A stretch of DNA of 64,000 nt from Candidatus Methanomethylophilaceae archaeon (lineage in GTDB: Archaea > Thermoplasmatota > Thermoplasmata > Methanomassiliicoccales > Methanomethylophilaceae), in contig CALUHR010000009.1 in assembly GCA_944320495.1 (NCBI GenBank), forward strand, positions 1 to 64,000, written 5' to 3'. The translations under genes were made by a program, and so were the position numbers. Of this stretch, positions 3,232-41,256 are shown one piece after another. Numbering within the stretch: the stretch's first letter is position 1; the number at the start of each line of letters is the position of its first letter. Under the pieces are notes generated by a model. It did not search any database, was not told where the DNA came from, and saw only the letters and a program-made list of their open reading frames with translations.

Positions 3232-3954
3232 ATGAGGTACAAAGAGATCCTCCCGGGCGTCCGCATCACGAGCGACAGATGCCTGGTGCTCAAAGAAGGG
3301 CCGACCGTGGTCCTCGGGGACCTTCATCTCGGATACGAGCGCGCCCTCGAGCAGGAGGGGATGTACATACCCAGGATAAACACGGACTCGATCCGCGACG
3401 CCCTCAACGACATCCTCTGCCGCTACGAGCCTGAGAGGGTGGTCCTGCTAGGGGACGTGAAACACGACTTCAAGCGTGCCGGGTTCGAGGAGAAGCGCGA
3501 GGTCAGGAGGATCATCGGACTGCTCTCCGAGGCCGCCGAGACGGTCGTCATCAAGGGGAACCACGACAACTACATCCAGAACATCATCTCCGACCTGGGG
3601 ATCCTGGCTGTGGACAACATCGATATCATGGGATACAGGCTGGAGCACGGACATGTGGACTCGGGCGTGAGGCCTGTGATAATCGGGCACGAGCACCCGT
3701 CCGTCAGGATCCCTGGGTCTGTCGGGGGCGGCATGAAGATCCAGTGCTTCGTCCATGCCAGGAAGGACGGGGTCATCGTCCTGCCGCCGTTCAGCCCGTT
3801 CTCGTCCGGGAACGACCTGGTGCTCGACAAGGAGTGCGTGATGGCCCCGGCCCTGAAGAGCTCCGACTTCGCCTCCGCCGAGATATACGGCGTCACCGAC
3901 ATGGGACTGATGGATCTGGGCACCCTCAGGGACCTGTCGGAGGTCACCCTCTGA
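3232..3954 (+). CDS. Calcineurin-like metallophosphoesterase, archaeal SbcD-related (240 aa)
   Basis: Carries the full dinuclear-metal signature: GDLHLGYE, GDVKHDF, GNHDNY and GHEHPS in order. It matches the small archaeal metallophosphoesterase family (YcsE/SbcD-related), which lacks the capping domain of Mre11. The frame is open from 3184, but the ATG at 3232 has a T-rich TATA-like box (ATCTTTTTATG) about 25 nt upstream and starts where family proteins start. It acts on phosphodiesters or phosphomonoesters; the exact substrate is not inferable. Confidence 0.85.
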   Translation: MRYKEILPGVRITSDRCLVLKEGPTVVLGDLHLGYERALEQEGMYIPRINTDSIRDALNDILCRYEPERVVLLGDVKHDFKRAGFEEKREVRRIIGLLSEAAETVVIKGNHDNYIQNIISDLGILAVDNIDIMGYRLEHGHVDSGVRPVIIGHEHPSVRIPGSVGGGMKIQCFVHARKDGVIVLPPFSPFSSGNDLVLDKECVMAPALKSSDFASAEIYGVTDMGLMDLGTLRDLSEVTL

Positions 3955-24770: not shown

Positions 24771-27700
24771 ATGATTCAAATCGAGAAAAGGAGGATCGCC
24801 GCCGCACTCGCGGTGCTGGCGGTTGCTGTCGTGGCGATGGGAATCGTGGCGGAGGCCTCGGATTCCCAGGCCGACGACCATGTTTCCATCCCCGCCCCTC
24901 TAGCAACGGAGGTGCCCGGGCTCACCGCGATCGAAGCAGCGTTCGATGCTGATGGAGAGACCATCGACACGTCCATGTTGCCTGAGGACCTCAAAAAGTA
25001 CCTCACCGTTACAGGAACGGTCAATGAGGTGGAAGTAGAGCTGACTTCGGCGCAGTACGATGTCACTACGGATTCTGGGTTCCTGACCCCGGGGGACTGC
25101 ACAGTTACCATCTCATCAGGTGAGATCTCAGACACCGTGACCGTTGCGAATGTTCAACCAGTTGGCATCTCAAACCTGGAATTCAACACCGATGACCTCG
25201 GACAGGTCTTTGTTACCACAGATAATGAGACTGTTGGCGAGAAGGTGACAGTAACCGCTGTATTCTCCAACGGTGTGAGACAAACTCTCTCCCCGGACAT
25301 GTACACAGTTAACTTCAACAAGGATGTCGGAACACAGACGTTCAGCATCTCGGTTAACTTCAATGGAGAGAACATTCCTGGCTCCTTCACCTACGAGGTC
25401 TCTGAATTGGAGATGACTGGTCTGAGGGTCGATGTAGGGGGGAGTAGTGAATTTACAACGAGCATGAACTCGTACCGTTTGCATGATGCCCTGGCTGTTT
25501 ACGGAACATTCAACGATGGGAACGAGTACAGACTGCCTGCCTACGGATTCGACTATGAGGTTGAGGGATCCCTGCTGGCCGGCCCCACAGAGATAGAGGG
25601 TCCGTACCCAGCGACAATCACTGTAACACCCAGCGACAACGACTCCGAAGCCCAGCCCGTGGAGACGACCATCCAGGTTACTCCCGTTAAATTGGAACGT
25701 ATCAGCGCCGAAGACCAGAGGATGGGCTCTTATCAGGCGTACACGACGGTCGATAACGGCTCGGAGTGGTTCTCAGTAAGAGCATACTTCGTGGATGGGA
25801 ATTCGACAAATCTGTCAACTGGCGATTATTCAATAACATACGAGGGCGTCGGTGAAGGTGAGCCGCAAAGCTTCAGATATGGCCATGGGACCATAACCGT
25901 GCATTTCACGGAAAATGGAATAACGAAGACCGATACCATCTCGGGATACAATGTCACACGGGCTCTCGTGGAATTGCCCGATCTGAACACCGGTACGATC
26001 TCCTATGGCGACACAGCGGATTGGCTTATGACCGGCTTCGACGACAGGCTTCGGATCACCACATCTGAGGGGCTGAGTTACTCCGTGGACCCCAACGATG
26101 ATACGAGACTGCATTTCACTGCGACCGAGGCGGGGAAGTACACGGTCGTCGTGAGCCCTCTGAACGACAGCATAGTGCTTGTCCAGCGTGGTACGGACGA
26201 CCCCCTCTTGGAGGGTGAGGTGAACCAGTACACGTACACCCTGACAATCTCCGCCGCCCAGTACGACATAGAGCTCACCCTCGACGATGACATAATCGCT
26301 GGGGAGAGCGGATATCTGACGATCGAGCTGACGGGTCCGAACGGGGAGTCCGTCCCGCTACCAAGTGTGATATCGTACAGATACTCCGGGACCAACATGC
26401 TGGGGAAGCCCATCGAAGGTACGGGACTTCCGACGGATGCGGGAACATGGAATGTGTACGTGACGGTCCCTGCGAGCGGGAACTTCAGGGAGACCGGAAA
26501 ATACACCGGGGATTTCATCATAGACCGCGTGGTCCATGGAGCTCCGACACCGGTGGGCATCCCGTACGACGGGGTTGCGCATTCGGTCGAGTTCGGCACC
26601 GGCGTCGACACCTCGTTCTTCGAGGTCACGGGGGACGAGCACACCGATGTCGACGAGGGCTACGAAAGCACCCTCATCATCAGCGACGATTGCTGGAACA
26701 ACCACTGCTGGACCGGAGGCGAGAGGTCTGTAGTCGTCTATTGGAACATCGTCCAATCTCCCAATGACTTCACCGAGAAGCCATCCATCACGGGATGGGA
26801 TTTCGATGAGAGCCCCAACAGCCCTTCCGCGAAAGCGACGTTCGGCGATCAGAGCGGGATCGTATTCACGTTCTCCCAGAGCAGGGACGACGCCGATTCA
26901 TACAGGACCATGGACGAGATAGAGGTCTGGTCGGCGGGTACGTGGTACATGAAGGCCACCTCGCCAACCGATGGGCGGAACTACACTTCGGTCACATCAG
27001 AACCTCTTGAGTTCCAGATCGGCAAGATGCAGGTAGACTATCCTGCTGAGGACACCTCGACATTCGTATACACCGGCGGCACGCTGTCCTACAACCCCTT
27101 AGGATTTGATGAGTCGTTCATGACGATGACCGTCACCCAGAACGGTTCGACCTTAGAAGACGTCACGAACGCGGGGACGTACACCGTGACAGTCACCCTT
27201 GACGGGAACCATGAGTGGGACACGTCTTCGGCCCACGGGGACCTGAACGATGAAGGAGACCCGACGTTCACATGGACCGTCGGAACAGCGGAGAACACCG
27301 TCGAATCGTTCGACATATCGGGCTGGACATACGGCAGCGGCATCAACACACCCTCGAACGTCGTCATGTCGTTCAGCGATGACTACACGGTCGAGTACTC
27401 CAGAAGCCGTGATGACGGTTTCCGCCCTGCGAACGAGATAAGCTCCTGGGATGCGGGGACGTGGTACGTCCGCGTCACCTCCGGGTCATCCGACAACTAC
27501 ACCTCGGATCAACTGACTAAGAATATCGTAATCGCCAAACTCGCCGTAGACTATCCATCCGAGGACGCTAGTGACTTCGAATACACCGGCGGCACGCTGT
27601 CCTACAACCCCTCCGGATTCGATGAATCGTTCATGACGTTGACCGTCACCCAGAACGGTTCGACCTTAGAAGACGTCACGAACGCGGGGACGTACACCGT

Positions 27701-30700
27701 GACCGTCACCCTTGACGGGAACCATGAGTGGGACACGTCTTCGGCCCACGGGGACCTGAACGATGAAGGAGACCCGACGTTCACATGGACCGTCGGCAAG
27801 ATGGGGATCGATGCAGGCCTGAATCAGAGGGACTTCACGTTCAACGGAAGCCCCCAGACCCCTACGATAACCGGCGACAGCACGCAGTTCTCTGTCAAAT
27901 GGGAGAACCAGGAGTCCACAGTGATTGATTCTTACGAGGTCTATCTGACCCTCAATGACAAGACGAACTACGAATGGGACCACGATGGGGAGCAGTACGG
28001 GGACTCCGTCTCCGGAGACGTCCTCACCCTCGTGTACAGGATAGTCGGCCAGACCTACGACCTGACGATCCAGATCGGAGATGGAGGGAGCGACGTGTCC
28101 TGGACGTACGGGAACGCGCATCTGCAGGTGAGTTGGAACTCGGACATACCCACGGAGATATCCGAGAAGCTGAAGGACCAGGACGATTACGGGAGCGGTT
28201 GGTTCTACGTGTTCAACGGCATAGACGGTACCGAGTACTACGGTAAAGACTGGCCCACCGATGCGGGAAGCTACAGCGTGTACCTGTTCATATCAGACAC
28301 GGGGATCTATGCGAACAAGACGTCCAACACCGTCACGTTCTCGATCGACCCGGCCAAGATTACCGAGCACGATATCGAGGACCACGGCTGGACCTACGAC
28401 GCTCAGTCCCACTCCGTCCTTTTCGACGGTGAGGAAAACATCGTCCCAAATGCTACAACGGTCGATGGTACGACTCCGACATGGTCGTACTCCATGTCAT
28501 CCGACCCTTACGAGTGGGGTACACCATTCCAGATAACCAAGTCGGGAACCTACACCGTCTGGTACAGGGTGTCCGCAGAGAATCATGAGACCATCATCGA
28601 CAGCTTCACACTGACAGTTGGAAAGGCCGAAATCACTGGAATCGTCATACCCGGGGGAGATTGGACCTATGATGGTGAGTATCACGGTGCGATGTGGAAC
28701 GGGGAATCCGACGGAGTGCCGAGCGGCTCCGCCTTGGGGAATGACATCTCCTGGACGTACAAAACCGATGTGAACGGGGAGTTCACCGGTGAGATACCGA
28801 CATTCAGGAACGCGGGAACGCACACAGTCTACTATAGAGCGGATGCGGATAACCACGACCCTGCCTACGGGTCCTTCGAGGTCCATGTAGGGAAGAGGAC
28901 GATCGACCTCGCCTTCAGTACCAACACCAGCGTGTACTCCAACTCCGAACCGTCCGTCCAGGGATGGGACTTCGAGCTCGACGGGTCCGACGTATGCTCC
29001 GGGGACAGCCTGGACACCCTCACGAACCTGGTCGGGATCTCCCTGGAGCAGGGAGTGACCAGATGGAACGTCGGATACTACGACCTTGTCGCCACCATCT
29101 CGGACACCAACTACGAGCTTAGATACGACGGGTCCGATAAGTTCGAGATCACGAAGCGGCCGCTGTCCCTCGAGGATGCCACGATCGTCTATGGGGACGA
29201 GGCTCCTGGACTGTCCGCTATCATCGGCAACATCGCCAACGGTGACACGATCGACGATGCCGTCACCGGGACGGCCGACCTCGACGGGTACGTTCCGGGA
29301 TCCGACTATGGCCGGTATAAGATCGCTGTGGGACAGCTCGCTGCAGGCGCGAACTACTCCATCGATCCATCGGAGACTGCGACGCTCACGGTGAGCCAGC
29401 GGCAGATCACCGTGGAGATCCAGAACGACAGCAGCACCTACGGCGACGCCATAGACGCCCTAGAGGGGATCGTCATCGATGGAAACCTCGCCCTCGATCA
29501 CACCGAGACGGACGTGTTCAAGCTGTACCTCACCGACGAGGGAGACAGCGGCGAGATAGACATCTCCGTGACGGTGAACGCTGGGACCTACCACATACAT
29601 GGAACTGTGCTGAACAACAACTACGCCATCAGGTTCTTGGGCAAGTCCGACGGCGGAACGGAGCCCGCTCCGGAGTACGGGACGTACATCGTGAACCCGC
29701 GGTCGGTCACGATCGAGATCGTGACGGAGAACGGGAGCATGGACTACACCGGCGACCCAGATGCAGTGTTAGAAAAGGTATCCAGCATGTTCAGGGTCGA
29801 CAACGATCCAGATTCGAACTTCCCCGAGCCGGATTTCGTGTTCATGAAGGACGATGATGAACTGGGCCAAATCCCGACGGATGCGGGAAAGTACACCGTC
29901 AGACCGGTCTACAGCAGCAACACCAACTACGTCCCTAGCTCGGACCTGAAGGCGACGTTCACGATCAACAAGATCGACTACGACCTCCCGACCCTCGGAT
30001 GGGACGTCATGAACGATGGGAACTCCGTGAGCGTGACCGAGTACAACGGAGGGGAATACACTGCAGTCCTCTCCTCGGAGAGCACGAGGTTCACCGACGG
30101 ATCGACCGTCATCACGGGCATCGATGACTCCAGGCTGACAGTGAGCTATTCTATCGTGCACGAGGGCCCCACCGTCGGAGGGGCCGTCGATGCGGGCACC
30201 TATGTAGTGACAGCCACGTTCCATTCGGACAGCGGGAACTACAACATCCCTGAAGACATGACGTATGATCTCGAGGTCCAGCCCGCACAGGTGACCATCG
30301 TCTGGGAACCAACCGGCGACCGCTTCACATACGACGGAACCGACCAGAAGTCCGAGGTCACCGCGCACTACGTCGACGTGAAGGGGATTGATATACCTCT
30401 GACGGTGACCATCGAAGGGACGTTCGAGATCCCCAGGACGGAGGCCTACGTCTTCACGGCAGGGTTCAGCGACAGCGACACCGGGAAGGGGAACTACGCC
30501 CTCCCTGACAATCCGACCAGGAGCTACTACATGGACAGGATGCCTGTCACGATCAGCGTCTCCGACCAGAAGGTGCAGTACGGGGATCTGCTTGACGCCT
30601 CCGGATGGTCCTACGAGTTCACCGACGGAACGATACTCGAGAAGGATCTGGAGGAGGGCGGATACGTACAGCTGTACGTCGACAGGAACGTCACCGGGGA

Positions 30701-33700
30701 CAACCCCCTCCCCGCGGATCAGGCGTATGCTGATGCGATAAAGTACACGATTCAGCTGAGGAACGAGTACTACGACATCACCCCTGAGTACGGCGACCTC
30801 AAGGTCACTAAGCGCTCGATCGTGATCACGATTCCAACCATCGAACGCACGTATGATGGCCAGCCGGCAGACCTGGGAACCCTCACGGACATATAGCAGT
30901 ACGTCACAGACGGCTCGATCCTCACATCAGACAACATACTGAGCCTGACGCTATGCTACGGGGAGGGTGGCACCGGCGATGCGCCCACCGACGCCGGCAG
31001 TTACGAGGACATGGTCTGGTGCATATGGAACAACGAGCGCTACGACGTCGATGTGATCCCTGGGGACCTGGTGATCAAACCCGATTCCCTGGAAGTGACC
31101 GTAAACCCCGAGAGGCCCAGTGCCGAGTTCAACGATGAACAACAGAGTCCGAACGTGGGGTACACGGTAACTGGAACGAACAGCGGGATCAGCTTAAGCT
31201 CCGAAGTCTACACCGTAGGGTACAGGATCGGCGATGCCTGGGTGGACGAGGCCCCATCGTTCACCGATGTCGACGAGTACACCATCACCTACAAGATAAC
31301 GCCCGACAGCAACAACTACCTCCCCTACGAGGGCAGCTTCATATTCGTGATCACAGGAACGACGAACAGCTTCACGACCGAGTTCGACCAGGACGACTGG
31401 ACCTACAGGGAGGGCAAGGGAACAAGCGTGGAACCCGTCTCGAAGTTCGGAAACCCAACGGTCAGGTACTACACCGACCCGAATCACACCGAGGAGTACA
31501 CGGGAGGGATGGACAATGACACCCCTGCGGGGACGTACTACGTGGTCGTCAGCGTTCCCGCCGACGGGGACAACTATCCGGAACTGACAGGTTACTACGA
31601 GTTCACCGTCAACAGGGCGACCCTCCATTATGAGTGGGACCAGACGATGAGCATCACGTACACCGGCGATGACATCACCAACACCCTCACCGTGGACCAT
31701 TGGTCCGTGAACGGTGTCGGCGAGGCGATCGCGGTCGGCGGGACCGGGGAAAGCGTCGTCATGTACAGCAACCCCTCCGTCGACGTTACCATCGATAGCG
31801 GGAGACTGTCCATGACGGCGACGGATGTGGGCAGATACAGCGTCGTCCTGACCATAACCGATCCCAATTACATGTGGGACGGCGAGGATGCGGACACCCT
31901 CACCATCGAGACCGCATGGGAGATCGTGGAGGACCTCATGGAGAACGGCTGGACGGAGGATCCGGGGATCGACAGCATCGTCTTCGGTGAGATCCTGAGC
32001 CCGCGCGGGACTCCCGAGCATGGCACTGCAACGTACTACTTCTCGCGGTCTTCCAACCTGGAATCGTTCAACAGCACCGAGAGACCGACGCAGGCCGGAA
32101 CATACTACATGCTCGTCGTGGTCCGTGCAGTCACCGACGGAGGCGTCCATTACGAGAGGCTCGTGTCGGAACCTATCGAGTTCGAGATCCAGGTCAGGAC
32201 GATAGACGTCCCCAGCATCGTGTTCTCCACCAAGTTCTCACCAGGGGACGTGCAGACTGTCGATCTGTCCGACCTCGGAATGGACCCTGATGACCAGGCC
32301 TACGTGTCCATGAGCGGGGACAGCGGAACCTCCGCCGCCACGTACACGGCAATCCTGACCCTCACGGACAAGGTCAACTGCGCGTGGAACGTCGAAGGGG
32401 GCACTAGCACGGAGGACCAGTCCGTGCAGTGGACCATCACGCCTCTGGAGGTGGAGTTCGACACTGACGACTTCGGCAGCCACGACGATGACGCGTACTA
32501 CGACTACGACACTACCCTGAAGACGTACAACCCCAGCTTCTACGACTCCAAGTTCATGGACATCTCCGGCAACACGGGAAGGGATGCTGGCACATACACA
32601 GTCATCGTCACCCTGACATCGACCGACTACGTCTGGAAGGGCATCGAGGAGAGGTCCGTGACAGTCGGCTGGAACATCGATCCGAGAGCGCTGACGATGC
32701 CGACCCTCCGCTACGATACGATGGACGGCGCCAGCCTGGTCATCCCTTACGGGGGTTCCAGCATAACGGTGACCCTCAACGGGTTCGATGCCCAGACCAT
32801 GGGCATAGTCACCCACGGGACCACTGTCTCGTCGTCGGATGACGGCACGATATCGTCCACTGTGGGCATAGGAAGCTACAGTTTCGATATATCCCTGAAG
32901 ACCTCCAACTATGTGTGGGTCGGACAGGACGTTGACGTCAGGTCGATCCAACTCACTCTGAACGTCACGGCTAACCGCGTGGATGTGCCGGACGCGATGG
33001 AGAGCGAGTTCGAATACGACGGCGAGTCCCATTCGATCCTATTCGACGACACGTCGAACCTCATCATAGAGAACAATGTCCATACGAACGCCGGCACCTA
33101 TGTCGTCACGGTCCGTCCCGCCGAAGGATTCTACTGGCAGGACGGCACGTCCGACGCTGTCGAGTTCACTCTGACCATCGATAGAGTCACCGTCGTGATT
33201 ATGGTGGATGGGGACATAGAGGTCTGCTATGGGGAGGACATTCCCGAAATCGGATGGACCTACGCAGAGGGAAGCGACCGGTTCGTGAACGAGGATCTGA
33301 CGAACGGAACCATCGTGGTGACGATAATCCCAGGGGCCTCAAATGGAGATAATGTCGGAACATATCTGATACAAATGACGGCCGTTGCTGGCAACAACTA
33401 CATTGTCACCTGTCTGAATGGCAATCTGACAATCAATCCCGCGATAGTGGATGTGCCATCGGACATCGGGAACGTTCCCGGACTCGCCTACGACAGCGAT
33501 GGCGTCACGTTCGATCCTGCCATCCAGTGGGGTGATGAGTATGACGAGGGGACGATGTCCGTGAGCGACAACTTTGGCACCGACATCGGTGTACAGACCT
33601 CGTACCTGCACCTGAGGGATCCCATCAACCATGTCTGGAACACAGGAGCATCTGCCGACATCGAGTTCCATTGGGAGATCGTGAAGAAACCCGTGTCCAT

Positions 33701-35198
33701 CGTCATCCCAGACCAGGAGGGGTCTAATGTCCCAGGCGTGCCTGGACAGACTGTCGATCTCGGAGAGTACGAGGCGAGCGGAGAGCCTCTGGACATCGTG
33801 ATCGGAGGATTTGACAGCACCTGTATGCGTGTCGAATCGGACCCCGAGGGATGCTTCGCGATCGATCCCGTCACAGGCGTGATGACCATAACCGCCAAGG
33901 ACCTTGGGACATACACGATCCGCTTCTACCTGGTGGACGAGCACTACGAGTGGTCGTCCCCCACCAACTCCATCCTCATGACTCTCGCATCCCCGACACC
34001 AAAGGATGCTCTGATCATGACATTCACCTTCACGATTGTAGCGAATTCGGAAGGGGAGGAGTACACGGTCGAGGCGGGACACAATTCCCTCGTTTATGAC
34101 GGCGAGGAGCAGTCCTACGTACCAGATGGCTTCGACAGCGACCATATGACCCTAGGCGGGACCACGAATGCTACGATTCCAGGGACCTACACCGTGACGG
34201 TCACCCTGAAGGACCCCATCGACCGCTGGGGCTCTCTTGATGACGACGGGGATGGCACCATCTACATAACATGGACCATCACGAAGAGACCGGTCACGTT
34301 GACCGCCGAGAGTGGCAGCATGGCTCTCGGAGGAGACATGCCCGAACTGGACGTCCTCGGGACCGACGGTTTCGTCGACGATGGACTGGACGATCTCTTC
34401 ACGGTATCGTTCGACCTCGTCGACCCTGATGTCCCTGGGGAGTACACCGTCAGAGTCGAGAAGGTCGGTGACCATGCCGCCCTTGCCCACTACGACATTG
34501 AGTTCGTAGACGGTAAGATCCTCGTCATGTCGGGGGACTTCCGGGAACTCTTCGTCCTAGATGGCGTCACTGATCCGGAGACCTACAACGGTACGTACAT
34601 CACCAAGCCGATATCGTCCCCTCACCTCACTCTGGGGGAGGAGTACACCGTGACCTATGCCGACAACATAGACGTGGGGGTGGCGACCGTCACCATCACA
34701 GGATTGGGCAACTACTCCGACCAGAGCCTGTCCTTCCAGTTCGAGATCCTGAAGGCCGACCCGCCAATCAGGTTCGACCAGGAATCGGTGTCCAGATATC
34801 CCGATGACGGGTCCTTCACCAACCCCTTGGTGGTTCCCGACTATGTGGTGACCGAGGGTTCCGCTACGTACGTCAGCAGCGATCCATCCGTAGCATACGT
34901 GGACCCCGTGACCGGCCTTGTAACGACAGGTTCCGCAGGGACCGCGGTCATTACCGTGACGGTGCCGGGCACGGAGAATTACAACGATTCTACCGCCTGG
35001 TTCACGGTGATTGTCAGTAGCACCCCGATGGTCGTCATCCCTGGCGACGATGATGTCATCGTCCTTCCGGGACCCGAGACCGTGAAGTGGTATCAGAAGG
35101 ACATTTCCCTCTACATACTGCTGATCGTCATCCTCGTCGTCGGGTTCCTGCTGTACATCGTCTACACCGTGTGGAAGCGGAGGGGTGACGGGCAGTGA
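24771..35198 (+). CDS. Giant repeat-rich surface protein/adhesin with one in-frame TAG (3,475 codons)
   Basis: A single reading frame with GGAGG ribosome-binding site (24762-24766). Residues 1-about 32 are a signal peptide (basic RR, then a hydrophobic core ending AEAS). The body is tens of Ig-like beta domains of the MBG/YDG type, each with Y.G....P......D.GTY.V.V patterns. Near the end a Big-like domain (SSDPSVAYVDPVTGLVT) precedes a membrane helix (YILLIVILVVGFLLYIVYTVW) and KRRGDGQ. Codon 2042 is TAG (30894-30896). The beta domain continues directly across it, and no other stop or frameshift occurs in 10.4 kb. Read-through as pyrrolysine is the favoured reading; otherwise two halves (24771-30896 and about 31011-35198), one without anchor and one without signal. 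Confidence 0.85.
27069..27796 (+). repeat. Two 215-bp near-identical direct repeats inside the surface protein
   Basis: 27069-27283 and 27582-27796 have equal length, start at TACACCGGCGGCACGCTG and differ at only a few bases. The encoded 71-residue units differ at two residues (L/S and M/L). Other domains of the protein are far more divergent, so this duplication is recent or maintained by conversion. Confidence 0.9.
30894..30896 (+). other. In-frame amber (TAG) codon, candidate pyrrolysine site
   Basis: Context is GAC-ATA-TAG-CAG-TAC. The domain begun by IPTIERTYDGQPADLGTL before the codon is completed by NILSLTLCYGEGG...DAGSY after it. No other gene I could confirm here uses TAG as stop. 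Confidence 0.7.
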
Positions 35199-35671
35199 GC
35201 GCACACGACTGCATGGCCCTGATCGACGTCCTGGGCGAGAAGCACGTGCTGGAGATGTTGCTCTTCCTCCGCGAGAACGGGACATGCAATAAGAGCCAGC
35301 TGTACAGCGCTGTCTCCCGCGGTGCACGTATGCCGGACAAGCTGGACATGATGGAGGTCGTCGGGCTCATCGTCATCGACAGCGTCGACGGCTCCAGGTG
35401 CCACCGCGTCTCCCTGACGGACCTGGGCCGGAGGGTGAGCGACTTCCTTCATGACCTGATGGATGGCGCGTCCAATCGTGACCCGGCTGTCGCCCGACGT
35501 TCCACGGCCGCCGACAAACGACTTACGGGCCCCCGGCCCGGAAACCCCTTCCGGCGTTCGTCCGGACGCCGGTATCACGATTCCTGGATCCTTCACATCC
35601 CGGTGGTAAGTGTCTGCGATTCGTGCGACCTCGGTGTCATCTTTTCAGAATTGTTATATGCCATATGTTAG
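35195..35671 (+). CDS. Winged-helix regulator coupled to the giant surface protein (158 aa frame)
   Basis: GTG start overlaps the surface protein's TGA by 4 bp. Residues 8-92 form a winged helix (LIDVLGEKHVLEMLLFLREN..CNKSQLYSAVSR...LDMMEVVGLIV) related to the regulator at 24162. The following 65 residues (from ASNRDPAVARR) are low-complexity, contain a hairpin (CCGGCGT/ACGCCGG, 35553-35574) at DNA level and end at TAG, so the original stop may have been lost and the functional protein may end near residue 95. Confidence 0.75.
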   Translation: MSAHDCMALIDVLGEKHVLEMLLFLRENGTCNKSQLYSAVSRGARMPDKLDMMEVVGLIVIDSVDGSRCHRVSLTDLGRRVSDFLHDLMDGASNRDPAVARRSTAADKRLTGPRPGNPFRRSSGRRYHDSWILHIPVVSVCDSCDLGVIFSELLYAIC

Positions 35672-38732: not shown

Positions 38733-39479
38733 ATGGAAGAGGAGCTCAAGAAAGGGGTCCAGTTCGAGGGCAAGGAGGAATACATCAAGGATGTGTTCAC
38801 CGAGATCGCGGACTACTACGACGAGATGAACGAGATCATGTCCATGCACATGGTCCAGGGCTGGCACAAGTTCATGATGCGCAAGGCCGGCGACATCGCC
38901 GGGAAGAGGTGCCTCGACGTGGGCACCGGCACCGGGGAGATCGCCTTCCATGTCGCGAGGACCGCCGGTCCCGGCTCCACGGTCATCGGCGTGGACATCA
39001 CCCCGAGGATGCTGGAGCTCGCCGCGAAGAAGGAGAAGGAGCTCGACCTGCCGGTCAAGATCGACTGGAGGGTCGGGGACGCGCTCAACCTGGACATCCC
39101 GGACGACTCCGTCGACCTGGTCACATCCGGATACATGCTCCGCAACGTCACGGACATCCAGAAGGCGGTCTGCGAGATGCACCGCGTCCTGGCGCCCGGC
39201 GGCAGGGTCGTCGTGGCCGAGCTCTCCAAGCCGAAGAACGGCGTCATCCGCTTCTTCTACAACATCTACATGAAGAGGGTCAAGAGGTACGGCCGCAAGT
39301 ACGACAAGGGCAAGTCCATCGACGGCCGCCAGTCCGCCTACGAGTGGCTGACCTCATCGATAGAGGGGTTCCCCTATGGGGAGGACATGGTCAGGATCTT
39401 CCGCAAGGCCGGGTTCGAGGACGCCAGGTTCTATGTCAAGTCCTTCGGCGCCGTCAACATCTACGTGGGGACGAAATGA
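38733..39479 (+). CDS. UbiE/COQ5-like C-methyltransferase (248 aa)
   Basis: SAM-dependent methyltransferase: motif I CLDVGTGTGEIAFHVA, VIGVDITPRML (motif Post I), GDALNLDIPDDSVDLVTSGYMLRNVTD (UbiE signature II) and HRVLAPGGRVVVAELSKP. The N-terminal segment EYIKDVFTEIADYYDEMNEIMSM matches UbiE. In quinone pathways it methylates the prenylated ring made by UbiA/MenA. It sits between the prenyltransferase and a HAD phosphatase in one operon. Confidence 0.9.
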   Translation: MEEELKKGVQFEGKEEYIKDVFTEIADYYDEMNEIMSMHMVQGWHKFMMRKAGDIAGKRCLDVGTGTGEIAFHVARTAGPGSTVIGVDITPRMLELAAKKEKELDLPVKIDWRVGDALNLDIPDDSVDLVTSGYMLRNVTDIQKAVCEMHRVLAPGGRVVVAELSKPKNGVIRFFYNIYMKRVKRYGRKYDKGKSIDGRQSAYEWLTSSIEGFPYGEDMVRIFRKAGFEDARFYVKSFGAVNIYVGTK

Positions 39480-41185
39480 GGGAGTACAACCTCTACCTCT
39501 TCGACTTCGACAACACCCTGTACGACACGAGCGCCGGCATCCACAGGATCCTCGAGGAGGTCCTGCCGGTCATCGGCGTGGATTACCGCAGGGAGGAGTT
39601 CACTAGGTACCTCGGGATGTCCATGGATGACATCTTCGACACGTATTCGAAGCGTCCGGACGCGTACGACGAGTATCGCTCCAGGTTCTACGATGCGGTG
39701 GCCACGAACTCCTACAGGGAGTCGGAGCCGTTCCCCGAGACGCTCCGCGTCCTGAGGGCCCTCAAGGACAGGGGCAAGCGCATCGGTATAGTGTCGGGGA
39801 AGATGCGCTACAAGATCGTGGACCTTCTGGAGGACCAGGGGCTCGGGGACATCCCCGAGACAATCGTGGGGTGGGACGACACCGACGCCCACAAGCCCGA
39901 CCCCGAACCGGTGGCGCTCGCGTTCTCGAGGTTCGACGTCCCCCGCGACAGGACGCTCTTCGTCGGCGACAGCTACAACGACGCCGGGGCTGCCAACGCC
40001 TTCGGTGTGGACTGCGCCATAGTCAAGCGTCCCGACGGATTCATGGCCGAGGACCTGCCCTGCAGGTACGAGATCCCCAGCCTGGAGGATCTGCTGGTCT
40101 GGGACGAGCGATCGCAGCATCCCCTGGGATGACAGCCTCATCAGCAGGTCCCGGGCCTCGCATATGCCGGACTCGGCGGACGCAGTGAGCAATCTTATCG
40201 CATCCCTGTCCGGCATCTCGATGCGTCCGGACAGTGCCAGGGCGCCGAGGTTGTACATGGCCGTCGGTTCTCCGGCATCCGATGCGCTCCTCAGCAGCGT
40301 CTCCGCACGTTCGATATCCCTGTCGATGAGCATGGATCCGAGCATCGACTGGGCGTAGACGAACCCGGCGTCGGAGGCCATCTCCATCCATTCCATCGCC
40401 TTGTTCTCGTCCCTCTCGCCGAGCGAACCGTCCATGAGCATCAGCGCGAGGTTGTACATCGCCTTGACGTCGCCGTCCAGTGCAGCATCTGTGAAGTATC
40501 CCTCCGCCTCCGCGAACTCACCGCGCTCGTAGAGGATCCCTCCGATGCACAGGCGGGCGTCGTTGTCACCCTGGTCCGCAGATGCGCGGAACCATCTCTC
40601 GGCCTCCTCGCGGTCGACGGGTATGCCGTCACCCGCGTCCAGCATCATGGCGAGATCGTACTGGGAGTCCGGGTCGCCCGCCTCGGCGGCCCTTCTATAG
40701 AGCTCCGCCGCGCGCGGCTTGTCCGGGAAGACGCCCTCGCCGGTGCGCAGGATATGGGCCAATATGCCGGCGGCCTCGGTGCTGGTGGACGCAGCCCTCT
40801 CGAGCCACATGACGGCCCTCTCCGGATTCGCCGCCACCCCGTTCCCTCCGCGGAGCATCGTCGCGGCGTTGATCATGCCCTTCTCGTATCCCGCCTCCGC
40901 GGCCCTCTCGAAGAGGGCGAGAGTCCGAGCGGGGTCGATGCCCATCATGATGCTCCCGAGGTTGCACATGGCCTTCGTGTTCCCGAGGTCGGATGCGCGC
41001 TTGAGGTACTCCGCGGCGGTGACCGTGTCCTGGGGGACGCCCTCGCCGACGATGTACATGTAGCCGAGCGACGACGACGCGTCCGCATCGCCCAGGTCCG
41101 AGGCCTGCCTGTACAGCTCGGCCGCCCTGCCGGGGTCCTGTTCGCGGACCTCGTCGCCCATCTTCCTGATCTCGGAGGCTTCCAT
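39461..41185 (-). CDS. Sel1-repeat protein whose frame runs on through the HAD gene (574 aa frame)
   Basis: Residues 1-about 355 (41185-40118) are nine or ten Sel1-like repeats of about 36 residues (AAELYRQASDLGDADASSSLGYMY and variants), a solenoid that binds partner proteins. After ...CEARDLLMRLSSQGML the sequence is the exact antisense of the HAD gene with no repeat character, ending at TAG 39463-39461. The biological C-terminus is probably near 40118; the stop seems lost. ATG 41185 is preceded by a TTAAGC TATA-like element about 26 nt upstream. Confidence 0.75.
   Translation of the reverse strand: MEASEIRKMGDEVREQDPGRAAELYRQASDLGDADASSSLGYMYIVGEGVPQDTVTAAEYLKRASDLGNTKAMCNLGSIMMGIDPARTLALFERAAEAGYEKGMINAATMLRGGNGVAANPERAVMWLERAASTSTEAAGILAHILRTGEGVFPDKPRAAELYRRAAEAGDPDSQYDLAMMLDAGDGIPVDREEAERWFRASADQGDNDARLCIGGILYERGEFAEAEGYFTDAALDGDVKAMYNLALMLMDGSLGERDENKAMEWMEMASDAGFVYAQSMLGSMLIDRDIERAETLLRSASDAGEPTAMYNLGALALSGRIEMPDRDAIRLLTASAESGICEARDLLMRLSSQGMLRSLVPDQQILQAGDLVPAGQVLGHESVGTLDYGAVHTEGVGSPGVVVAVADEERPVAGDVEPRERERHRFGVGLVGVGVVPPHDCLGDVPEPLVLQKVHDLVAHLPRHYTDALAPVLEGPQDAERLGERLRLPVGVRGHRIVEPGAILVVRVRTLRIRVEDVIHGHPEVPSELLPAVIHADDRQDLLEDPVDAGARVVQGVVEVEEVEVVLPHFVPT
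39476..40132 (+). CDS. HAD-superfamily phosphatase, phosphoglycolate-phosphatase-like (218 aa)
   Basis: Motif I DFDNTLYDTS (catalytic D-x-D), motif II VSGKM, motif III/IV KPDPEP and GDSYNDAGAA. Cap domain C1 type between residues 20 and 90. Overlaps the methyltransferase stop by 4 bp (ATGA). Probably removes phosphate from a small metabolite, perhaps in the same pathway as the prenyltransferase; that link is only by operon. Confidence 0.9.
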   Translation: MREYNLYLFDFDNTLYDTSAGIHRILEEVLPVIGVDYRREEFTRYLGMSMDDIFDTYSKRPDAYDEYRSRFYDAVATNSYRESEPFPETLRVLRALKDRGKRIGIVSGKMRYKIVDLLEDQGLGDIPETIVGWDDTDAHKPDPEPVALAFSRFDVPRDRTLFVGDSYNDAGAANAFGVDCAIVKRPDGFMAEDLPCRYEIPSLEDLLVWDERSQHPLG

Positions 41186-41256
41186 GGGGGCGGAGGATGG
41201 TCGGTTCACGCTTAACCTTTAGGATGATTGATATCGGGGATGCGCATGCAGGTCGC

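Follow-up and report, generated by a model that had tools for sequence, protein, structure and literature searches.

Introduction

'Ca. Methanomethylophilus alvus', which probably belongs to the same order as the archaeon studied here, is one of the closest described systems. In the portion of the published account that bears on this subject (Borrel 2014, PMC4153887), 16 putative pyrrolysine (Pyl) proteins other than methyltransferases are given, TAG makes up 1.6% of the stops, and the in-frame amber codon is proposed to be a stable mutation. The present genome resembles M. alvus in its rare TAG stops, in TAG-interrupted genes with intact downstream sequence, and in the presence of TAG-less homologs elsewhere (PMC4153887). 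The M. alvus Pyl proteins treated in that portion of the account are however mostly of 149–425 aa, and no adhesin of 3,475 residues is among them. A second system is the strain ISO4-H5, where the relevant part of the genome report (PMC5011839) gives 46 genes with an in-frame amber codon: methyltransferases, hypothetical proteins, 10 insertion sequences and one adhesin-like protein. This last is an amber-containing adhesin-like gene as is the one described below, although from another strain.

Two protein families are also pertinent. The adhesin-like proteins of gut archaea and Firmicutes with MBG or Big_2 repeats likewise have a signal peptide, tandem MBG repeats and a C-terminal anchor, but those of their frames that were examined are free of internal TAG codons. 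The methylamine methyltransferases MtmB and MtbB have an in-frame TAG read as Pyl, and both are found in the genome studied here. Their Pyl is catalytic and its position is invariant, whereas no such role is indicated in the adhesin.

Kivenson et al. are said to have described, in Science in 2025, archaea with a Pyl code in which all TAG codons are read as Pyl. A genome-wide reassignment of that kind, with many Pyl proteins, would cover the present case, but in this genome TAG still seems to be the terminal codon of about 34 high-scoring genes.

The adhesin open reading frame

The stretch of DNA analysed, termed the window, makes up the initial 64 kb of contig C9; the genome to which it belongs measures 1.77 Mb and is 90.6% complete. 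Gene content and gene order, taken together with the literature, suggest that the archaeon belongs to the order Methanomassiliicoccales. Window positions 24771–35198 display a frame of 3,475 codons followed by TGA. The translation has a single internal stop, a TAG at positions 30894–30896 (codon 2042), and the codon directly after it is CAG. A GGAGG ribosome-binding site is situated immediately 5′ of the ATG at position 24771.

Hydropathy analysis shows two membrane segments only, one at residues ~9–27 in the signal peptide and one that forms the C-terminal anchor (Table 1). The TAG separates the signal peptide, which comes before it, from the sole membrane anchor, which comes after it. Pfam repeats of the MBG_2 and MBG_3 types are present on both sides of the TAG, and a Big_2-like repeat is found near the C-terminus. 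The three features of an adhesin-like surface protein, i.e. signal peptide, tandem extracellular repeats and C-terminal anchor, are all present.

Per codon, the dicodon coding score amounts to 0.251 upstream of the TAG and 0.276 downstream of it, and GC3 is 0.75 and 0.78, respectively. The other two forward frames contain 74 and 33 stops across the same 1,433 codons downstream of the TAG. An open, coding-like sequence of this length is far from chance. A preliminary description of the locus had claimed a frame that is complete save for one TAG at codon 2042, a signal peptide 5′ and the only anchor 3′ of that codon, and no further stop beyond it. The translation bears out the first claim and the hydropathy profile the second, and the 1,433 codons past the TAG are open with an undiminished coding score and GC3.

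Selection on the 3′ half, which the preliminary description had claimed, is suggested only by the intact coding signal and by the 4-base overlap with a downstream gene. This small open reading frame has a ribosome-binding site inside the 3′ end of the adhesin sequence. It ends in TAG itself, with a backup stop 5 codons on.

Table 1. Positions of the adhesin features and of other open reading frames. Positions without a contig name are those of the window.
Feature	Position	Strand	Remarks
Adhesin-like protein, 5′ part, 2,041 codons	24771..30893	+	Signal peptide at ~residues 1–32; MBG-type repeats
In-frame TAG, codon 2042, probably decoded as pyrrolysine	30894..30896	+	Translation; genome-wide TAG context
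MBG-like beta-rich domain holding the TAG (predicted)	30825..31085	+	MBG_3 match below cut-off, clostridial MBG alignment, model
Adhesin-like protein, 3′ part, 1,433 codons, then TGA	30897..35198	+	MBG_2, MBG_3 and Big_2-like repeats
C-terminal membrane anchor, residues ~3443–3466, then KRRGDGQ	35097..35168	+	Hydropathy
Small open reading frame, 158 aa, winged-helix look (by inspection)	35195..35671	+	GTG start overlaps adhesin TGA by 4 nt (GTGA)
Second giant adhesin-like gene, 2,301 codons, TAG at codon 666	C3:62673-69578		Signal peptide and C-terminal anchor
TatD-family gene with TAG	C13:283363-284232		GAG in sister species G008
SPFH-like gene with TAG	C13:128268-129665		TGG in sister species G008

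The domain around the TAG

An MBG_3 match of 19.2 bits, which is below the 25-bit cut-off, begins 7 residues after the TAG. As it enters the profile at position 20, the start of the domain should lie upstream of the TAG. An alignment with a clostridial MBG protein crosses the TAG site as well. The AlphaFold model puts the TAG residue on a short turn within a domain rich in beta structure, with moderate confidence (pLDDT 69 when 13 aligned repeats were supplied, 33 from the single sequence).

A search of the PDB for similar folds with this model gave no match at E ≤ 0.001, and the top hits were Rib domains of surface adhesins. Profiles built from the internal repeats scored the TAG-containing domain only weakly, the repeats being too diverged. 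The domain had at first been described as an Ig-like one that spans the TAG. The MBG_3 match and the model agree with a TAG inside a domain, but the repeats are of the MBG/Big_2 kind and not classical Ig. Both the coding sequence and the domain continue across the in-frame UAG, as is expected of a Pyl-containing protein.

Decoding of UAG

The genes pylT, pylS, pylC and pylD are found on the same contig as the adhesin, 2–5 kb past the end of the window. PylS gives a match of 260.8 bits (cut-off 178) at C9:67854-68522, which is 4 kb beyond the window. Directly upstream of it, at ~68755–68689 on the minus strand, is pylT, whose anticodon is CTA and whose fold is that of a cloverleaf; Rfam gave no match when this region was scanned. 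The pylC and pylD genes come after pylS. In-frame TAG codons are present in two MtmB genes and in two MtbB-like genes (the latter named by inspection). The genome thus has PylRS and tRNA-Pyl(CUA) together with in-frame TAG in methylamine methyltransferases, as is expected of a Pyl-decoding organism. According to the preliminary description, a genome without pyl genes would have been an argument against its reading; pylT, pylS, pylC and pylD are present.

PylB is the exception to the full pylT, pylS and pylBCD set that had been proposed for the search: it was not detected above the cut-off in the 90.6%-complete genome or in the sister species G008. The pylS and pylC genes abut without an intervening pylB both here (C9:67848 region) and in G008 (C92), whereas in two congeners (G014 and G007) a PylB match sits between them. 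In M. alvus, pylB is 0.7 Mb away from the other genes (PMC3941956), so relocation into unassembled DNA appears to be the simplest explanation for the missing gene. Were pylB truly lost in the species pair, the UAG residue would be desmethyl-pyrrolysine or would need a precursor supplied by neighbours. Synthesis of the complete anchored adhesin, and of the methyltransferases, would then hinge on the community, and supply would decide at the TAG whether the secreted or the anchored form is made. Such a loss would be far more interesting than a relocation, but the reading built on it is considered very unlikely.

Other TAG-interrupted open reading frames

A dicodon model, for which the genome itself served as training set, was run over the whole sequence, and a TAG was counted if coding sequence was found on both sides of it. 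This gave 11 cases, four of which are methyltransferases. The other seven are the adhesin described here, a second giant adhesin, an SPFH-like gene, a TatD-family gene, a DUF4238 gene, a transposase-like gene and a helicase. In TatD and in the AAA_11 domain of the helicase, the Pfam match continues past the TAG without a break. When TGA and TAA were treated in the same way, most cases proved to be pairs of adjoining genes, with a start codon no more than a few codons away from the stop.

The adhesin is thus not special as a putative Pyl protein outside the methyltransferases, as there are at least seven such TAG-interrupted genes in the same genome. The earlier suggestion that a pyrrolysine outside methylamine methyltransferases would be exceptional is not supported, given these seven and the M. 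alvus and ISO4-H5 figures, as far as the latter are given in the portions of the reports cited above.

Comparison with a sister species

G008 is a sister species of the genome under study (termed G000), with 94.6% DNA identity over ~390 kb of aligned sequence; 446 kb of G008 was compared. Differences between a sense codon and a stop codon were counted only where the frame was the best-scoring one on both sides and in both genomes. Four such differences in coding frames are TAG (two per species), one is TAA and none is TGA, yet the TGA triplet is three times as common. With TAG at 21% of the stop triplets in the genome, the probability that at least four of five differences are TAG is ~0.008, a hand calculation that is based on small numbers and ignores mutation bias.

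For two of the TAG genes, those of the TatD family and the SPFH-like type, a sense codon is present in homologs at the TAG position. TatD will be used as an example. Its sequence is 98.6% identical in G008, and the residue at the TAG position is E in all five nearest congeners, including G008. The GAG in G008, together with E in the four next-nearest congeners, indicates that the TAG in TatD is the derived state. The sense-to-TAG changes across the genome look like a pattern of drift made harmless by decoding.

This bias to TAG over TGA and TAA favors what the preliminary description had offered as a sober alternative, i.e. a sense-to-TAG mutation tolerated by Pyl decoding, and this is the best reading of the adhesin TAG, whether the ancestral codon was CAG or another. 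The pyl genes, the methyltransferase TAGs and the tolerance of TAG inside genes are also in accord with the view that the organism decodes TAG.

The adhesin locus in related genomes

An ortholog that extends across the adhesin TAG site was not found in 31 relatives, in 102 genomes of the family, or in the genome_contigs and viral_contigs sets. The nearest matches are at the level of repeats only, with 25%–37% identity, and come from the congeneric G014, from G106 of the same family and from clostridial proteins. At the syntenic place in G008 (C52, C37) the flanks are conserved with 91%–96% identity (81% close to the gene). The G008 contig then enters a different adhesin-like open reading frame without detectable similarity, and breaks. 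The locus is apparently a hypervariable adhesin island between conserved flanks.

These properties bear on the main rival explanation, which is that the gene was recently broken and yields a truncated secreted protein, or that faulty sequencing or assembly has put a TAG into a normal adhesin without pyrrolysine. In favor of this view, adhesins are dispensable and evolve fast, and the sister species has an unrelated-looking adhesin in the same place. The genome is also metagenome-assembled and contains a few TGA and TAA interruptions. The strong TAG bias of the coding interruptions, however, is unlike that expected of errors or decay, and the coding signal persists at full strength through all 1,433 codons past the TAG. 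A broken gene or a sequence error is on balance unlikely.

TAG as a probable terminator of some genes

About 34 of the 913 genes with a score of at least 60 (3.7%) end in TAG, a small share next to the 21% of TAG among stop triplets. One example is a Sel1-like gene at positions 39461–41209 on the minus strand of the window. Read-through of its terminal TAG would add 571 non-coding codons that contain seven more TAGs; UAG is for this reason not purely a sense codon here. (In G008, the same gene shows an earlier GAG-to-TAG difference at ~codon 430.) TAG therefore probably still terminates some genes in this genome, and a fraction of the adhesin may stop at residue 2,041.

A TAG-ended gene at C5:129064-130179 on the minus strand is followed in frame by a gene for an RpoE-like protein (archaeal RNA polymerase subunit), and read-through would result in a fusion.

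Termination at some TAG codons makes both adhesin products physically possible, and the signal peptide before the TAG with the only anchor after it would suit a programmed switch, in which the availability of Pyl would govern how much adhesin is secreted as a 2,041-residue form and how much is anchored as a 3,475-residue form. Such a switch, which the preliminary description had considered, finds no positive support. The RNA at and after the TAG has no unusual fold (z = −0.48 and 0.90, not stronger than in shuffled sequence). The TAG is inside a domain and not at a domain boundary, and no ortholog that might share the TAG site was found in the 102 family genomes. In addition, TAG is equally present in TatD, the helicase and the transposase-like gene, where switching would be senseless. 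A programmed switch is thus very improbable.

Discussion

Pyrrolysine at codon 2042 might have a selected function, e.g. as a reactive surface group, as Pyl is known to be functional in methyltransferases. The second giant adhesin speaks against this: a comparison of 22 of its repeats shows free variation at the TAG position, with AGC and CAG in the two repeats closest to the one with the TAG. In unrelated genes, TAG has taken the place of E and is aligned with W and Q, which is a pattern of drift. A selected role is accordingly hard to credit. Least credible of all is a pair of genes, with one open reading frame that ends at the TAG and a second protein from the ATG at position 31011: a table-11 gene caller would give exactly these two, but the second would begin inside a domain and without a signal peptide, and only GAGG is found ~2 nt before its ATG.

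The explanation that is considered likely is a single 3,475-residue anchored adhesin in which codon 2042 is translated as Pyl, the TAG being a tolerated neutral point mutation and some termination a by-product. From the pyl genes, the methyltransferase TAGs and the tolerance of TAG, but not of TGA or TAA, inside genes, we infer that a full-length Pyl-containing adhesin is the likeliest product, and the anchored full-length protein of the preliminary description is retained in this sense.

In the proposed process, the locus would encode one adhesin-like surface protein of a Pyl-decoding methylotrophic methanogen, and tRNA-Pyl(CUA) would translate the TAG. This would yield mainly the anchored protein in full length, with pyrrolysine at a single residue. 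Most likely, a simple point mutation turned a sense codon into the TAG where the fast-evolving protein tolerates such a change, and the TAG may have been kept because UAG is read through across the genome. The 2,041-residue secreted form that some termination at UAG would give is expected to be incidental and not the outcome of a designed switch.

Among the cases of this published phenomenon, the adhesin is an unusually large one. Standard annotation cuts it and other genes, such as TatD, into false halves if UAG is read in this genome. The surface structure of these archaea would then also depend in part on pyrrolysine supply. As the pair of sister species shows recent sense-to-TAG differences, the speed at which a stop codon is converted to a sense codon should be directly measurable.
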